Assembly: GCA_016929695.1 (NCBI GenBank)
Contig: JAFGII010000100.1
Coordinates: forward strand, 1 to 56,505
Source: Ignavibacteria bacterium
Lineage (GTDB): Bacteria > Bacteroidota > Ignavibacteria > Tepidaquicellales > Tepidaquicellaceae
Direction: 5' to 3'
Length of the DNA: 56,505 bases
Below are positions 31,760 to 45,459 of this stretch, piece by piece (position 1 is the stretch's first letter; every line of letters begins with the position of its first letter). Made by a program: the position numbers and the translations under genes. Under the pieces are notes generated by a model. It made no database searches. It saw only the letters and a program-made list of their open reading frames with translations, and was not told where the DNA came from.

Positions 31760-32287
31760 TTACAATTTCAGACCTCCTGTTTTGTAATTATTAACATACA
31801 TCTGATAATTTCGTGAATGCTGTTTTATATTTTCAATTTCCTCCTCTGTTAAGTCACGTATTATTTTCCCTGGTACTCCGGCTGCAAGGACTCCTTCGGG
31901 AACTGAAAAATTTTCTTTTATGAGAGTTCCCGCCGCAATGAGTGAATTGGAATTCACTGTGCAGTTATCCAGCAAAACGGATGCCATTCCTATTAATACT
32001 GAATCCTTAACTATACACCCGTGCAGAATCGCGCCGTGTCCTACAGAAACATCCTTTCCTATTATAAGCGGATATTTCCTGTATGTTACATGAAGAAGTG
32101 CTCCGTCCTGAATATTTGTCCTTTCACCTATACGGATATAATTGACGTCGCCTCTTATTACGCAATTGAACCATACATTAACATTCTTATCAAGAACAAC
32201 ATCACCGATTATATGTGAACCTTCACATATAAAAACGCTTTCATCAATTTTCGGATACTTTCCTAAATAAGGTAAAATCATTTTCAT
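31760..32287 (-). CDS. Gamma-carbonic-anhydrase-like hexapeptide protein
   Basis: A 175-residue left-handed beta-helix protein (YrdA/PaaY/CaiE group). Hexapeptide turns run from about 20 to 140. Putative zinc ligands are His66 (LLHVTYR), His84 and His89 (VGHGAILHG), and Arg45, Asp47 and Gln60 of the gamma-CA site are also present. It may be a carbonic anhydrase or a related metal or acyl-binding trimer. It lies five bases downstream of the E2-like gene and so is in the same transcript; a functional link is not clear. Confidence 0.85.
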   Translation of the reverse strand: MKMILPYLGKYPKIDESVFICEGSHIIGDVVLDKNVNVWFNCVIRGDVNYIRIGERTNIQDGALLHVTYRKYPLIIGKDVSVGHGAILHGCIVKDSVLIGMASVLLDNCTVNSNSLIAAGTLIKENFSVPEGVLAAGVPGKIIRDLTEEEIENIKQHSRNYQMYVNNYKTGGLKL

Positions 32288-32292
32288 TTTCT

Positions 32293-32808
32293 TTAATTTT
32301 TAAAATCAATCTGGATTTCCGGCAGTCTCAAGTCCTGATTACCCACAGGGAACATATTTGCATTTTCCTTTGCCCATTTTGCAGCAACTCCGTTTAGAGG
32401 ATTGTTTACATTATAATTCTGATATTGAATCATTTCGCCGATTAGATATATAACATCGGTTAAAGTTTCGCCCGGTGCCCAGTAATCTCCGGTACAGATA
32501 TCATTCGGACTTGATTTTCTCACATTAGGATGAAATATTTCACTTTTCATAAAACATAAAGGTTTCATCCTAGGATAATCAATATGAAGATAAATTTCAA
32601 CTGCGTGATTGTTTATTTTTTCAACTTTTTTTGTTTTACTGGAAGAGTCTTTATTTAGTTTCAGCCCGTTTACTCTATATTTTATAAAATATCTTTCGGG
32701 ATAGGAACCTTCGCGTGTTTCATATTCCACTGTAATATAAGGATTATTCAGAAATTCATTTCTTATTCTGTCAAAATCCGATTTTAATCTTCTGTCTCTT
32801 GGTGTCAT
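32293..32808 (-). CDS. E2-like ubiquitin-conjugating protein
   Basis: A 171-residue protein with the ubiquitin-conjugating (UBC) fold pattern. An N-terminal helix (about 4-20) precedes beta strands (ITVEYET, EIYLHIDYP), then FHPNV with the HPN motif (93-95), the catalytic Cys105 in ICTGDYWAPGETLTDVI, and a PLN-A--W segment (137-145) matching the last E2 helices. E2 proteins carry an activated ubiquitin-like modifier as a thioester and pass it to a target. It lies ten bases after the JAB peptidase gene. No E1-type ThiF protein or modifier with a C-terminal Gly-Gly is in the window. The fold call is based on motif order alone. Confidence 0.8.
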   Translation of the reverse strand: MTPRDRRLKSDFDRIRNEFLNNPYITVEYETREGSYPERYFIKYRVNGLKLNKDSSSKTKKVEKINNHAVEIYLHIDYPRMKPLCFMKSEIFHPNVRKSSPNDICTGDYWAPGETLTDVIYLIGEMIQYQNYNVNNPLNGVAAKWAKENANMFPVGNQDLRLPEIQIDFKN

Positions 32809-32818
32809 TTGGATTTAT

Positions 32819-33766
32819 TTAAAATGGTATTTCAATTTTTTTACCCGGATATATATCAAATTCATTTTGCAATTTATTGTGTTTAACCAGAGTATCGTAC
32901 ATCTCCGGATTATCGTAAAACCTGATTGCAAGTTTTCTCAGGTCATCACCGGGTCTTATCTCATATTTTATTATATTTGCCTTATCATTTTCTCCTAAAT
33001 TTCCAAGCGAATTCAACAGTTCAGAAAGTTCGTTGATTTCTGTTTCCAGTTTTTCTGTTTTAACTTTCTGGTTATTGAGTTCGGTGTGTAATGTATTGTA
33101 TCGGGATTGTGTTCCAATTATTAGTATAATTAAAATAATTGACGCGGGTACCAGTATGAATAACAGTACATCTTTTATTTTAATTTTTTTTCTCACGGTA
33201 TTTTTTTTTGTGCTTCCCGTTAATTTAACCGGCTGTGGGAATAAGTAATTGCTTTCATTATAAATTCCGTAGGATTTTAATTCAATAATATTGTTGCCGT
33301 CAAAACGGAAAAATCCCCTTTCTCTTCTAACAGGGTCATATACGAGTGCAGTCATGCATTCACCGTTGAAAAAATTCTCCTGAATAAATTTGTCATAACC
33401 CGACATAAATACTCCGTGCCCGGGATGAGAATGAAACCACCCTACAATTTTTTTCCCGGGATGGTTTTTTTCTAAAATGTTGTTTATATATTCCCACGTT
33501 TCGTGAGTGAATGTTAATCTGGATAATGAAGTTTCAGTATATAGTGCGATTATAATATCCTCTATTATTATAACATTTTCACCTGATACGGTACCGCACT
33601 CCCCTATTAATACCCCCCCGAGTTCGTTTTTAATATCCGATTCCAGATAGGTCTCGATTTCATCGAGAATTATTTTCCTTATATACAATTTAAAACCGAT
33701 GCGCTCTTCCTCTTCGCCTGACCATTCGACTGCGTCAGGAATTCTGATTTCTTTTTCTTTTGTCAT
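32819..33766 (-). CDS. JAB/MPN metalloprotease with transmembrane segment and LysM domain
   Basis: A 315-residue chimeric protein. Residues about 24-165 form a JAMM/MPN domain with Glu48 (NELGGVLIGE), zinc ligands His112 and His114 in HSHPGHGVFMSGYD, Ser122 and Asp125, i.e. an intact deubiquitinase-type site. A basic stretch precedes a single membrane helix (about 198-218), then a short coiled coil (222-255) and a C-terminal LysM domain (267-315, with YEIRPGDDLRKLA). The basic residues before the helix place the peptidase in the cytoplasm and LysM in the periplasm. Together with the E2-like gene ten bases downstream, it suggests removal of, or maturation of, a conjugated modifier linked to the cell wall. 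Confidence 0.85.
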   Translation of the reverse strand: MTKEKEIRIPDAVEWSGEEEERIGFKLYIRKIILDEIETYLESDIKNELGGVLIGECGTVSGENVIIIEDIIIALYTETSLSRLTFTHETWEYINNILEKNHPGKKIVGWFHSHPGHGVFMSGYDKFIQENFFNGECMTALVYDPVRRERGFFRFDGNNIIELKSYGIYNESNYLFPQPVKLTGSTKKNTVRKKIKIKDVLLFILVPASIILIILIIGTQSRYNTLHTELNNQKVKTEKLETEINELSELLNSLGNLGENDKANIIKYEIRPGDDLRKLAIRFYDNPEMYDTLVKHNKLQNEFDIYPGKKIEIPF

Positions 33767-33803: not shown

Positions 33804-34475
33804 TTAAAATTCTATTCCTTCCCTTGCAGGAATTCCTTTATCGAAATAATGTTTTACTTTTCGCATTTCAGTTATTAAATCAGCATTTTCATCTATATAA
33901 TCCCATATTTTATGCCCTGTCATTACAAGTTCAAACCGTTTGTTTTTTTTATATATATCTATAAGATTCTCAATTTCTTCCTTTTTTAAAAGATTATACG
34001 CAACTGCAGCAATCGCTTCATCCAGTATTAATAAGTTCATATCTCCTTTAATTATCAAATCCTCCGCAAGTTTTAAAGCCCTTTTTGCTTCATCAAAATC
34101 ACTTTGATTGTTTTTAAATCTGAATGTGCCGTCAGGGTTCATTCTTTCACATCCGGTAGGATGTATTTCAATCGGATATCCAAATTCTTTTAATCGTCTT
34201 AAAATATGCCTTTCCGAATAATGTTCGTTTTCGTTTTCATAACCTTTATCAAACTGAATAATTATAACTTTTTTTCCCGCACCGATTGCTCTAACGGCAA
34301 GTCCTAATGCACTGGTTGTCTTTCCTTTGCCGTAACCATAATAAATGTGAAGGCAATTTTTATCTTCATCACTGAGATTTTTGTAACTCTCAATTGTCTT
34401 TAACATTTTTTTCTTAAAATTATCACTTCCCGATTTCTGCAGGTCATTTATGATTTTGTCGCCGTTGTTATTCAT
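33804..34475 (-). CDS. cobO: Corrinoid adenosyltransferase-like protein (CobO/BtuR type)
   Basis: A 223-residue P-loop protein. GYGKGKTTSALGLAVRA (47-63) and the Walker-B-like LLILDEAIAA match the CobA/CobO/BtuR family, which adds an adenosyl group from ATP to corrinoids for coenzyme B12. The C-terminal LVMTGHKIWDYIDENADLIT and EMRKVKHYFDKGIPAREGIE are family hallmarks. No other cobalamin gene or riboswitch lies nearby. It starts a leftward run with the JAB, E2 and hexapeptide genes (37-base gap to JAB), which may be positional only. Confidence 0.88.
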   Translation of the reverse strand: MNNNGDKIINDLQKSGSDNFKKKMLKTIESYKNLSDEDKNCLHIYYGYGKGKTTSALGLAVRAIGAGKKVIIIQFDKGYENENEHYSERHILRRLKEFGYPIEIHPTGCERMNPDGTFRFKNNQSDFDEAKRALKLAEDLIIKGDMNLLILDEAIAAVAYNLLKKEEIENLIDIYKKNKRFELVMTGHKIWDYIDENADLITEMRKVKHYFDKGIPAREGIEF

Positions 34476-40464: not shown

Positions 40465-43400
40465 TTAATCTGTAATTTTCATTTTTATTTCTGCAGTGTT
40501 TCCGTTTATATCGGGGTAATACATCAGCATCGCTCTCGCAGGATTAACCGTATAATCTCCGGGAATCTGTGCACGCATTATATAACTGAATTCAAACTCA
40601 TTTCCGTATAAATAGGTTGCAAAGAATGTCACCCTGTTATCCCTTACTTCTTTATCCGCATACCACCATCTCCACCAGTAATACGTATATCCTGTATAAT
40701 CTTTTTCGTCTTCAATATTGTAAGCCCAGTCATCCTTTACAACTTCGCATCCCGCGGGAAGCGGCTCTTCAAGCATGAAGTAACTCAGGTTTTCTTCTCT
40801 TGTAAATACTCTTAACTTTACGAATATTATATCACCTGATTTAACTTCGCCGCTGAAATATTTTTTTCTGTATGTAATCTTTTCGCCTGAATAACTTTCG
40901 TACTGCTCGAGTCTGTAATATTCACGTTCGACCCGGAACCAGTTTTCTGCTGCATCTATTTTTCCGGTATTGTCAAAATAAGATGTTACCGATGAGAAAT
41001 ATAATTTCCCTTTTCCTGATTTCTCTATTCTTACTTCGTTATCTCCTGACTTTAAATCTGTACCTTTTATTTTTATAACTGAATCTTTATCGTAAATATT
41101 ATCCTTTGTATATCGTTTCTCGAATTTAAATTCATTGTTCACATATATTTTTACGCTGAAATCGGGGTCTAATTCCTTTGATATTTTCAGGTAATCAACC
41201 ATTGAAAAAACTGTTAATGCCGTTTCCTGAGTATTGCGCCAGGATGTACCCTGCCTTTGCATCAGTAACCATCTCACAATTTTTCCTGTCAGCGGAGAAT
41301 CTTTTTTTACATTTACAAATGCTTTTAAAATCATTGCGGTAGTCTGAACCCTGTCATCCTGCCATCTGTACTTGAATTTCTGTCCTTCCCAGTATGCCAT
41401 ATCGTCACCGGTATATTTGACGGACTTTTCAAGTGCTTCTATTTTTTGCTGCGCATCAATGTCTTTTCCTGTATTATGATAAGCAAGGGCAGTTAATGCA
41501 AGTGCAAAATCATTGAGTTCTTCTTTTTCAAGTTTTGATAATTCATTGTATATCAGACTCTGATTTTTTTCGTCCAAAGTTGAGAGCACGTAAAGCATAT
41601 AAGCCTTTGTTACCGGTTCTTTGTCGGAATTCAGATGGTTCTTAAGTGCCGCTATACCTTTATTTATCACAGTCTGACTTACGTTGTATCCTGATATTTT
41701 GGCAATGTTGAGACCATAAAGCACATAAGCGGTCATATACGGTTGGCTTCCGTCATTTGTCCACCATCCCCATCCGCCGTCTGATTGCTGAAATCCATAG
41801 AGTTTGTTTATACCCTGACTGACCATATTCGGTAGTTCCTTCTTCGTTTTTTCGGATAACGGAGCATTTAATTCTTTGAAAGCATTTGCCACAATTACAG
41901 AAGGTAGAAATCTGCTCATAGTCTGCTCAACACAGCCGTAAGGATATCCTGCAAGGTCGTCGAGTGAAGTTAATAATGCGGAAGCTATTGATGAAGAAGC
42001 AGTGAATTTTAAATTAACTGTTCTCAAATCCGCATATTTTGGAATATTAATCGTTTCCGATTCTGTTTTAAATTCATCTGTTATATCGGTAATGTTATTT
42101 TGAAACATTTCGAGACCTTTCGGCTGTATCGGTACTTTTATTTCTACTGCGTCGGATTCTTCATTGGTCAGTGCTTCGCAGTATAATTTCGCTTCCCCTG
42201 TGGGATTGTTTACTTTTATTTTCCAGTCAATACGTTCATCGGTGTTTGGTTTCAGATTCAGTTCAACCTGATTATTGCCAACCAGTTCGACTCCTTCGGA
42301 TTTGAAACTAACTTTTGTATATTTTTCAGTGCTCAGGTAATTATGAACTATTGTCGAAATAACAAGTTCATCCTCGCTCTGAAGAAATCTCGGAGTTTCC
42401 ATCCTAACAAGCAAATCTTTCCTCGTAATTACTCTGCCCGTAACTTGTCCGACTCTGGTATCCTCCGTTATTACTCTCGCCGTAATACGCCATTCGGTTA
42501 AATTATCGGGATATTTTACATTAACTTTTGCATAGCCGTTTGCATCGGTTGTAACATAGGGCATCCATATTATTGCATCCTTGAAATCAGATCTTAACTC
42601 AGGTTCAACCAGTTTTCCTTCGTCGTCGTCCTTACCCTTACCGTTTTTATATAATTTCTTGCCTGTTTCTTCTTTCGCAATTTCGCTTCTCGGAGCGAGA
42701 GTCTGTTCTTCTATTCCTTCATCCTCTCCCATTCCATCCAGCATTTCCCTGTTGTATATTTCGTTCAGTTCTTCATCTGTATACAATTTGATTGTTTTTG
42801 TCTCGCCTTTTCTGATTTTTATTTCCATTACATCTTCAATTTCTTCTTTACCCGTGTAAACACTCACGGAATATTTCCCTTCAGGAAGTTTAAATTCGAA
42901 TTCACCGTCGGGTCCCGTTGTACAGGCGTAATATATCCCGTCTACGACAATAACTGCATTAGCAATTGGTTTATTTCCCTTTGAATAAAGCACACCGTTT
43001 ATTGTACCTAATTCTGATTCTTTGGCAGATTTAATATTGAATCTCTCAAATATCGTTATCAGTCTGGAATATCCGTAATTCGTGGATACATAATTGAAAG
43101 ACGTTCCGATAATCGGATAATTTGCAGAATAGAAAAATTTCCTGATATCTTTTGTTTTGTCTTCCTTAATTGCATAAATGCTTTCATCAACAACACCGAG
43201 CGATACCTCCGCATTTGAGACGGGATTTCCGTAAAAATCAACAACCCGAATTGTGTATTCACCCTCTTCTTTTGGCTTATATATATTCTTTGAAGGTGTA
43301 AGTTCAACAGTCAAAAATTTCTCTTCGGGAATTATTTTTATATTTTCCGTTGCTGTGTTAATCTGCATATCCTTCACGTACGAAGCTGTAATATTAAATG

Positions 43401-45459
43401 TTGTATTGAATTTATCGTCAAGTATAAATTCTACATAAGCATTTCTTTCGGGAACCATTACGGTTTTGTAATAAAGTATGTTATCGGTCTTGGCAGAAAA
43501 AAGTAAGTTAACATTGGAATCGCTTGTTGCAATGAATACTTTGCAGGTATCTCCTTTTTTGTATGAATCTTTATCCAGCATAATCTGTGTTCCTCCCGTT
43601 CCGTAATATCCCCACCACCATTTTTCACCGGTGTAAACATAAAAACCTGCAGTCGAAGTTATCTCATTCCCTCTTTCGTCTCTTGCAATCGCTTTCATTT
43701 CATAATACCCATCCGAATTCTCTTTATCAATAAAAAATTCAAGATTTGCTTTGCCTTCTTTATTCGTCTTGCCTTCAAGCACTTTTATAAGGTCTTTTTG
43801 TTCCCTGTCAGTCCATTTGTACCATTTTGTTTTGTATATTTCGACTTTCAGATTTGTTTCTGTCGGCTTATCGAAAAAGTCCTGTGCATTTATTTTTATA
43901 TTTACCTTTTCCTCCGGCGTGTAAAAATATTTATTGGCTTTAATATTCATATAGAATCCGCCTCTGGTAACATATACGGTCTTAATGCCTGAAATCTCCC
44001 GTCTCGACTTATCTGTTACTCTTGCCTGTACTATATATCTGAAATCCGTGTAATAATCCCTGTACCACCACCAGCCGTTATTCCTTTCGAATTTGAAATC
44101 TTCATTTATTGCATAATCAAATTCAAATTTGCCTTCCGAATTCAGTTTACCTTTTCCTGAATAAATAAATACCGCACCGCTGAAATCACCGGTATATTCA
44201 TCCTCTTCATCTTCAAACCACCAGGCATAATCAGTAAACTTCCACCATGGGGTATAATATCTTACTTTATAAATATTGTATTCGACATCCGCTTCGGAAA
44301 CGAGACTGCCAAAGTAATATTTTGCCTCGACCGATGCTTGAAGTTCGTCTTTTCCATAATACTGTTTCTTGTCGGTGTTAACGGTAACTTTATATTCCGG
44401 CTTTTTATACTGTTCAACCGTAAAGGAATTACTGTATGCCTTGTTTTCACTCAGATAAACGTAAATATAATAATCCCCCAGTTTTCCGTCTTCAGGTATT
44501 TCAAATGAACCGTTAATGCTGCCATTTTGATTCGTGGTTAATTTCGTTTCATATACTTTCTGTCCGTACGGGTCGTTGATTTTTACATTTACTTCTCTGT
44601 AAGCATAAGATTTGAACTCACTTGTTTCACGCTTTTTTATTACGGACTTGAAATTTACTAAGCTCCCTGTTCTGTAAACAGGCTGCTGCGTGTAAATATA
44701 TACACTGTAATTTTCCGAAGGATAATTGTAATATGAATAAGGATCTGAAATTATAATCTCATCATCATATTTCCCTATCACGAGTATATCCTTGTCGTAT
44801 GAATTTTTTTCGTCTACTTCAGGTATATACTCTCCGTAAAGAATTCCTCCGCGTGTTTTTCCTTTCAACCTGCTTTTTCCCTTCTGAAAAAAATTCAGTT
44901 CTGCTTCGTCAACGGGGATTCCGGTTTTTCTGTCAACTGCATACAATAAAACTGAATTATTCCCGACTTCAGTTAATATTCCGTATCTCGATATTATAAA
45001 ACCCGTATAAGCCACATACTGACCTATAGACACTTTTACCACGTATGCACCGTTTTCATTTATATTGAGAGGTATATTCTCGTTAAGGTATAAATAACCG
45101 TAATCCTTTTTAACCTTAATTTTCTTACTAAAAGATTTTATTTCATCTGTATAATAGAGAAGATTTGAACTGTCCTTCCCTATTACATTAATATTTCCTC
45201 TCGATGTCTGATTCGAGTAAAATCCTTCAATATCTTTAATTTTTAATACAGAAATCTCAAAAGTATATTCTTTCTCTTTGACTTTATCAGAATAACTGTA
45301 CGCATAAAGATATACAGATACTTTATCTCCCGGATAATAAAGATTATTAGTATTGATGTAATAACTTATTCCCGGACTTACATTCTGCGAAAGTACAAGA
45401 CCGGGAATGAATAAAAGAAACATTACGGTAAATAAAAGCGGAGTTAATTTATTCTTCAT
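40465..45459 (-). CDS. Alpha-2-macroglobulin family protein
   Basis: A 1664-residue secreted protein of the bacterial alpha-2-macroglobulin family, thought to trap attacking proteases. A signal peptide (1-24, ending VLSQ) leads into repeated macroglobulin-type beta domains (for example QPVYRTGSLVNFKSVI). A carboxypeptidase-regulatory-like insert (about 805-870, GTINGVLYSKGNKPIANAV) is present before the central region. The thioester site GCVEQ with Cys1176, Glu1178 and Gln1179 is intact, followed by the helical thioester domain. In many bacteria such genes sit next to penicillin-binding protein 1C; that partner is absent here. It ends with a hairpin seven bases beyond the stop. Confidence 0.93.
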   Translation of the reverse strand: MKNKLTPLLFTVMFLLFIPGLVLSQNVSPGISYYINTNNLYYPGDKVSVYLYAYSYSDKVKEKEYTFEISVLKIKDIEGFYSNQTSRGNINVIGKDSSNLLYYTDEIKSFSKKIKVKKDYGYLYLNENIPLNINENGAYVVKVSIGQYVAYTGFIISRYGILTEVGNNSVLLYAVDRKTGIPVDEAELNFFQKGKSRLKGKTRGGILYGEYIPEVDEKNSYDKDILVIGKYDDEIIISDPYSYYNYPSENYSVYIYTQQPVYRTGSLVNFKSVIKKRETSEFKSYAYREVNVKINDPYGQKVYETKLTTNQNGSINGSFEIPEDGKLGDYYIYVYLSENKAYSNSFTVEQYKKPEYKVTVNTDKKQYYGKDELQASVEAKYYFGSLVSEADVEYNIYKVRYYTPWWKFTDYAWWFEDEEDEYTGDFSGAVFIYSGKGKLNSEGKFEFDYAINEDFKFERNNGWWWYRDYYTDFRYIVQARVTDKSRREISGIKTVYVTRGGFYMNIKANKYFYTPEEKVNIKINAQDFFDKPTETNLKVEIYKTKWYKWTDREQKDLIKVLEGKTNKEGKANLEFFIDKENSDGYYEMKAIARDERGNEITSTAGFYVYTGEKWWWGYYGTGGTQIMLDKDSYKKGDTCKVFIATSDSNVNLLFSAKTDNILYYKTVMVPERNAYVEFILDDKFNTTFNITASYVKDMQINTATENIKIIPEEKFLTVELTPSKNIYKPKEEGEYTIRVVDFYGNPVSNAEVSLGVVDESIYAIKEDKTKDIRKFFYSANYPIIGTSFNYVSTNYGYSRLITIFERFNIKSAKESELGTINGVLYSKGNKPIANAVIVVDGIYYACTTGPDGEFEFKLPEGKYSVSVYTGKEEIEDVMEIKIRKGETKTIKLYTDEELNEIYNREMLDGMGEDEGIEEQTLAPRSEIAKEETGKKLYKNGKGKDDDEGKLVEPELRSDFKDAIIWMPYVTTDANGYAKVNVKYPDNLTEWRITARVITEDTRVGQVTGRVITRKDLLVRMETPRFLQSEDELVISTIVHNYLSTEKYTKVSFKSEGVELVGNNQVELNLKPNTDERIDWKIKVNNPTGEAKLYCEALTNEESDAVEIKVPIQPKGLEMFQNNITDITDEFKTESETINIPKYADLRTVNLKFTASSSIASALLTSLDDLAGYPYGCVEQTMSRFLPSVIVANAFKELNAPLSEKTKKELPNMVSQGINKLYGFQQSDGGWGWWTNDGSQPYMTAYVLYGLNIAKISGYNVSQTVINKGIAALKNHLNSDKEPVTKAYMLYVLSTLDEKNQSLIYNELSKLEKEELNDFALALTALAYHNTGKDIDAQQKIEALEKSVKYTGDDMAYWEGQKFKYRWQDDRVQTTAMILKAFVNVKKDSPLTGKIVRWLLMQRQGTSWRNTQETALTVFSMVDYLKISKELDPDFSVKIYVNNEFKFEKRYTKDNIYDKDSVIKIKGTDLKSGDNEVRIEKSGKGKLYFSSVTSYFDNTGKIDAAENWFRVEREYYRLEQYESYSGEKITYRKKYFSGEVKSGDIIFVKLRVFTREENLSYFMLEEPLPAGCEVVKDDWAYNIEDEKDYTGYTYYWWRWWYADKEVRDNRVTFFATYLYGNEFEFSYIMRAQIPGDYTVNPARAMLMYYPDINGNTAEIKMKITD

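Follow-up and report, generated by a model that had tools for sequence, protein, structure and literature searches.

The window, meaning the whole stretch of DNA that was analysed (56,505 nucleotides), is an entire contig (C14) of an Ignavibacteria genome. Two neighbouring genes on its minus strand encode an E2-like ubiquitin-conjugating enzyme and a JAB-type metallopeptidase, transcribed in the order JAB to E2. The two ORFs are separated by 10 bases (32809-32818), in agreement with a preliminary description of this DNA. The pair and its flanks contain the following features:

31760-32287, minus strand: hexapeptide acyltransferase/gamma-carbonic-anhydrase-like gene on one flank, outside the system (kept in genomes without E2 and JAB, there beside BtuR)
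32293-32808, minus strand: E2 ubiquitin-conjugating-like enzyme, 171 aa (Pfam UQ_con; UBE2N/Ubc13 profile match; predicted UBC fold)
32494-32496, minus strand: codon of E2 Cys105, the predicted catalytic residue (the same in all 20 family homologues)
32524-32532, minus strand: HPN motif of the E2, residues 93-95 (invariant in 20 family homologues)
32819-33766, minus strand: JAB/MPN+ (JAMM) metallopeptidase with a transmembrane (TM) segment, a coiled coil and a LysM-like domain, 315 aa (Pfam; Rpn11 and LysM profile matches)
32825-32965, minus strand: LysM-like domain of the JAB protein, residues 268-314 (borderline in Pfam; clear in homologues from other phyla)
33113-33169, minus strand: TM segment of the JAB protein, residues 200-218 (Kyte-Doolittle 3.19 over 19 residues)
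33287-33697, minus strand: JAB domain, about residues 24-160, with E48, H112, H114, S122 and D125 (JAMM invariance)
33804-34475, minus strand: BtuR/CobO corrinoid adenosyltransferase on the other flank, outside the system (Pfam, 4.6e-50)

The E2 matched Pfam UQ_con above the cut-off (5.4e-08). A profile search against solved structures matched it to UBE2N/Ubc13 at 7e-04, a relation that is weak on sequence and clear on fold. Its AlphaFold2 model (pLDDT 80) showed a UBC fold, matched E2 structures in Foldseek (E 5e-07), and aligned with UBE2S with a VIA Z of 12.8 over 132 residues at 2.9 A. When the E2s of the Ignavibacteria family to which the organism belongs were aligned, HPN93-95, Cys105, Trp110 and Thr115 were invariant in all 20. 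The window protein thus has what defines the class: a UBC fold, an HPN motif and a catalytic-type cysteine. The preliminary description had called the gene E2-like from HPN 93-95 and Cys105, and had named the absence of a UBC fold from a predicted structure as evidence against this; the Pfam match, the invariance and the predicted fold all agree with its assignment.

The JAB protein matched Pfam JAB (4.9e-07) and Prok-JAB (7.3e-06), both above the cut-off. Its best match among solved structures in the profile search was a 26S N11/Rpn11-like protein (1.5e-11), and LysM proteins were also matched. The five JAMM residues were invariant in all 18 family JABs and the site is complete, as the preliminary description had stated for a JAB/MPN peptidase. 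At the C-terminus, the Pfam match to LysM was borderline (3.8e-04, 20.8 bits against a cut-off of 20.9); the domain was clear in JAB homologues from other phyla (for example 3.6e-09 and 1.3e-08), and the order JAB then LysM was seen in several phyla. A coiled coil was also predicted. The 15 residues preceding the TM segment carry a net charge of +6 and those following it 0, and the six net positive charges on its N-terminal side predict an N-in/C-out topology, which would place the peptidase on the cytoplasmic side and the LysM-like end in the periplasm.

The JAB-E2 pair was found in the same order in all family genomes having E2 (20/20; one locus was cut at a contig end, and one had its JAB ORF split in two), which indicated that the pairing was not due to chance. 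Relatives in which the two genes never co-occur, which had been proposed as grounds for giving up the link, were therefore not what the neighbourhood survey found. The split JAB gene (genome G006, L033:12456-13416) consists of two ORFs and reflects either an assembly frameshift or a decayed gene. In relatives, a beta-propeller lipoprotein-like ORF lies between JAB and BtuR, and this ORF is also found without the system. An Rfam scan around the E2/JAB locus gave no match. Elsewhere in the window, at 40465-45459, an ORF of 1664 aa resembles bacterial alpha-2-macroglobulin, with a signal peptide and a thioester-like motif, CVEQTMSRF.

The modifier, E1 and RING protein on a second contig

An E2/JAB pair without a linked E1 calls for a check of the whole genome before the pathway is called truncated. 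The ThiF/E1 search of the whole genome gave one place only, on contig C52, where an operon (G000:C52; L003:7813-10138) encodes a ubiquitin-like protein (Ubl), an E1 and a Prok-RING_1 protein in this order. The Ubl is a YukD-type protein of 93 aa (Pfam YukD, 2.3e-15). The E1 has 392 aa (Pfam ThiF, 3.7e-50), and its start codon directly follows the stop codon of the Ubl. The RING protein has 286 aa and contains Prok-RING_1 (PF14446, 3.3e-12), a zinc ribbon, a TM segment (132-150) and, placed after this segment, an NTF2-like C-terminal domain, Cds6_C, which was found in 14 of 17 family RING proteins. Since the window spans contig C14 from end to end, the two loci do not lie close to each other. 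The preliminary description had considered a stripped-down or a split pathway, or an E1 and a modifier encoded elsewhere. The pathway is split, with both missing components on C52, and the stripped-down version was rejected because E1, Ubl and RING are all present there.

Cys188 of the E1 was invariant among the aligned E1s and is likely the catalytic cysteine. A CCCH set (C169, C172, C257 and H260) resembles a zinc site. In the E1 of one family genome (G013; L060, 1420-2658), these four ligands were lost as a set while C188 was kept, which supports one zinc site together with a catalytic role for C188. The E1 model aligned with UBA3 (2nvu_B) through residue 384 and with SAE2 (9dqb_B) through residue 386, both taken from E1-E2 complexes, and it also aligned with UBA1 into the C-terminal region. 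Judging from the alignment range of the whole model, the E1 has a predicted C-terminal ubiquitin-fold-like domain.

The Ubl was by far the most conserved component. Mean pairwise identity in the family was 88% for Ubl, 63% for E1 and E2, 42% for RING and 40% for JAB, and the Ubl protein was identical between genome pairs at dS of 0.55-1.6 (rough NG86 estimates). At the sequence level, the Ubl is nearly as invariant as ubiquitin. When named genomes were scanned with the Ubl alignment, 80 loci were found, 17 of them from Ignavibacteria-type genomes (some titled Bacteroidetes). The Ubl core ended in PEITAG in all 18 family sequences and in all 79 complete Ubls of the named records; the eightieth was cut by a contig end and was left out. 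After PEITAG, 30 of the 79 had no residue, 35 had 1-5, eight had 6-20 and six had more than 20, and these tails, 1 to 318 residues long, were unconserved. In the window's organism, the tail SIHR follows Gly89. The core therefore ends in Ala-Gly, not Gly-Gly. That the invariant PEITAG either ends the protein or precedes an unconserved tail points to processing to Gly89, implying that this glycine would be the functional end; ubiquitin precursors have the same pattern of an invariant core end plus a tail. The JAB protein may cleave the Ubl tail, although many Ubls need no such cleavage.

In five loci from Oscillospiraceae and other Clostridia (L133:10001-11224, L142:4745-5983, L143:5872-7110, L093:10001-11017 and L107:10001-10591), the Ubl ORF extends 107-318 residues past PEITAG. 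Some of these extensions have a hydrophobic, lipoprotein-like stretch, and the arrangement is akin to natural ubiquitin fusions.

The Ubl might instead be a non-conjugated secretion accessory like YukD/EsaB, with the E1 serving sulfur transfer and E2 and JAB having another role. The YukD match is strong, the E1 also resembles ThiF/MoeB, and YukD, the namesake of the Ubl family, was stated not to be conjugated in a study that described related operons (Iyer 2006, PMC1779556). However, the genome gave no match to WXG100 (PF06013), the substrate of type VII secretion, and no ThiS/MoaD above the cut-off; the single PF02597 match was below the cut-off and lay inside a 754-aa ORF. The E1 and Ubl are thus left with no evident cofactor or secretion job. 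A YukD-type Ubl is also unlike the GG-ending carriers of ThiS/MoaD sulfur-carrier systems, of which none was found above the cut-off. In addition, the invariant C-terminal glycine with unconserved tails fits conjugation, the C-terminal domain of the E1 aligned with E1s from E1-E2 complexes, and E2, RING and JAB are linked to the Ubl in other phyla, as described below. We consider the secretion or sulfur explanation very improbable.

Distribution in the family and in other phyla

E2, E1 and Ubl were each searched for in 29 genomes of the family. E2 was found in 20, an E1 orthologue in 20 and Ubl in 21; a further E1 match in G017 (3.9e-24, 32% identical) was a distant ThiF protein outside the orthologue count. 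Two genomes disagreed, both of them fragmented assemblies. G007 had E2 and only residues 1-51 of the Ubl, with no E1 match. G024 had Ubl and E1, with E2 and the adjoining hexapeptide gene both missing, so that the absence of E2 is consistent with an assembly gap. Among the scorable genomes, 20 had Ubl, E1 and E2 and 8 lacked them (Fisher p 3e-07, with kinship ignored). A topoisomerase I tree indicated about three independent losses, and E1 followed E2 in all three. In the family, the five genes seem to be passed on and lost as one set.

The nearest relatives of the window's organism, the other two genomes of its genus (G001 and G002), have neither Ubl nor E1, and the E2/JAB pair is missing as well: at precisely the site that it occupies in the window, 15 bp separate BtuR from the hexapeptide gene. 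The site by itself fits both a loss and a site that was never filled, and the tree favours loss. A functional tie to the B12 gene or to the hexapeptide gene was rejected, because both persist where E2 and JAB are absent.

These data also bear on whether E2/JAB is a system independent of Ubl/E1/RING, the two simply being found in the same genomes. The two loci were on different contigs in every family genome having both, so the genes do not share one neighbourhood in the family, which concerns organisation rather than biochemistry. A tree-aware sign test gave p 0.25, three losses being too few to reach significance. Against independence, the joint absence in G001 and G002 is precise, the C52 pair is the only E1 and the only Ubl of that kind in the genome, and the five homologues are adjacent in four or more other phyla. 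Independent systems are, in our judgement, extremely unlikely.

The Ubl loci outside Ignavibacteria came from Planctomycetes, Armatimonadota/Zipacnadia/WS1, Clostridia, Synergistetes, Lentisphaeria and unnamed bacteria. With the profiles built here, Ubl, E1, JAB, E2 and RING were adjacent in most of these loci that were sufficiently long, and the one-operon form was usual in Planctomycetes, Armatimonadota/WS1, Clostridia and Synergistetes. The Ignavibacteria loci had Ubl-E1-RING without E2 or JAB in the available flank, and their E1s formed one fully supported group in the tree. Because a single operon is usual in other phyla, the family has a split version of it. Among 392 genomes sampled evenly from the phylum, E2 was found only in the window's own (1/392), so within the phylum the system seems confined to the Ignavibacteria family. 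It is plausible that the family got the system early and then split it.

Clusters L082-L144 (Planctomycete, Armatimonadota/WS1, Clostridia and Synergistetes) resembled the family system in having all five homologues, a JAB-LysM protein in several cases, and a Ubl that is 61-72% identical to the family's and shares its PEITAG end. They differed in forming a single cluster, in having extra JAB and RING paralogues, and in their additional genes and fusions: FHA-TM proteins, E2-TM-FHA fusions, a trypsin-like protein, and RING joined to FHA, TPR, DUF2628 or DUF805. In one Clostridial locus (L138:11466-13379), the E2 continues into transmembrane helices and ends in an FHA domain, a fusion which suggests that E2 may be recruited at the membrane in a phosphorylation-dependent manner. 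Five Armatimonadota/WS1 loci (L089, L102, L106, L123 and L144) have a second E2 type, in which HPN and Cys are further apart (HPNI...GxVCIG) and which in some of these loci accompanies the standard E2; several clusters have two or three JAB paralogues. Carriage as mobile or phage cargo was rejected, since the Ubl had no match among 72,556 plasmid and 50,697 phage records.

Proposed pathway and comparison with known systems

No other job is evident for the E1 and the Ubl, and together with the co-occurrence, the empty site and the one-operon homologues this favours a single pathway. We concluded that E2 and JAB together are very probably one half of a single Ubl conjugation pathway, providing transfer and deconjugation/maturation, while the Ubl, the E1 and a RING E3 form the other half at an unlinked locus. 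The two enzymes would then share one modifier.

From these results we infer enzyme activities, an order of transfer, topology, substrates and a role at the envelope as follows. JAB would trim the Ubl precursor after Gly89, here releasing SIHR. The E1 would adenylate Gly89 and take the Ubl on its cysteine, probably C188. Its C-terminal ubiquitin-fold-like domain would present E2, and the Ubl would pass to Cys105. The membrane-bound RING protein would recruit the charged E2 and transfer the Ubl to lysines on target proteins located at the inner membrane or close to it. Finally, the JAB domain, held at the membrane while the LysM-like end points into the periplasm, would take the tag off. The predicted topology and the domains present (an NTF2-like ectodomain on the RING protein, LysM on the JAB protein) would fit a vertically inherited, non-immune protein-control system that is tethered to the envelope and encoded at two unlinked loci; we put this forward tentatively. 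Targeting to a 20S proteasome is unlikely, because the single PF00227 match in the genome was a 177-aa ORF beside an HslU-like AAA+ gene, that is, HslV-HslU, and HslVU alone was found.

To our knowledge, the bacterial ubiquitin-like pathways tested so far are mostly immune operons, and no RING is known from Bil or Bub. A phage-defence role here has no support beyond family resemblance. The preliminary description had compared the pair with Bil, and E2 and JAB might be parts of a Bil/Bub-type anti-phage conjugation system displaced from the rest. Bil (BilABCD) and Bub share E1, E2, Ubl and JAB with the present system, the JAB and E1 matched the generic PADLOC JAB, E1-E2 and BilD models, and immune systems are among the known bacterial E1/E2/JAB operons (PMC13373217, PMC11354881; Bil components per the latter). 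However, the window E2 matched no PADLOC model, BilB included, and the family E2s matched none but a generic E2 model, at 0.0013 in 6 of 20. The E2 has a classical HPN motif instead of the CEHH motif reported for BilB (PMC11354881). The four linked genes BilA-D are not seen, as E1 and Ubl are not beside E2 and JAB; a YukD-type Ubl and a RING protein are present; and the chromosomal sites are kept vertically across the family with no plasmid or phage match. Identity with Bil/Bub was rejected on the E2 motif and the model matches, the earlier comparison does not hold, and a displaced anti-phage system is unlikely.

The Ub-E1-E2-small RING-Rpn11-like system of Caldiarchaeum subterraneum (PMC5654768) is similar in its E1/E2/RING cascade and in that the JAB protein here is nearest to an N11/Rpn11-like protein. 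It differs in being archaeal, whereas the present Ubl is YukD-type with an Ala-Gly end, the RING and JAB proteins are membrane-anchored, and the search of this bacterial genome gave no proteasome beyond HslVU.

No experimental study of the YukD/RING class was found in the literature searched. The present system combines a full eukaryote-like set, with a RING protein, a near-invariant modifier and an E1 bearing a ubiquitin-fold-like domain, and occurs from Ignavibacteria to gut Clostridia. It thus offers a small, defined set of proteins for asking whether a YukD-type Ubl is conjugated and what this is used for.

YukD-like Ubl/E1/E2/RING/JAB systems were reportedly predicted computationally by Burroughs, Iyer and Aravind in 2011 (Mol BioSyst 7:2261, cited in PMC11354881). 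By its match to the reported features of that class, namely a YukD-type Ubl next to an E1 with a C-terminal ubiquitin-fold domain, an HPN E2, a Prok-RING_1 protein with a TM segment and a JAB with a complete JAMM site, the present system fits a variant of the class. It differs in that its genes lie in two unlinked loci, its RING protein has an NTF2-like domain after the TM segment, its E2 is stand-alone and soluble, and neither half has an FHA protein seen beside it. New are the two-locus arrangement in the Ignavibacteria family, the precise empty site, the co-loss and the RING-NTF2 form, together with the PEITAG-plus-tail pattern across phyla, which may already be noted in the 2011 work.
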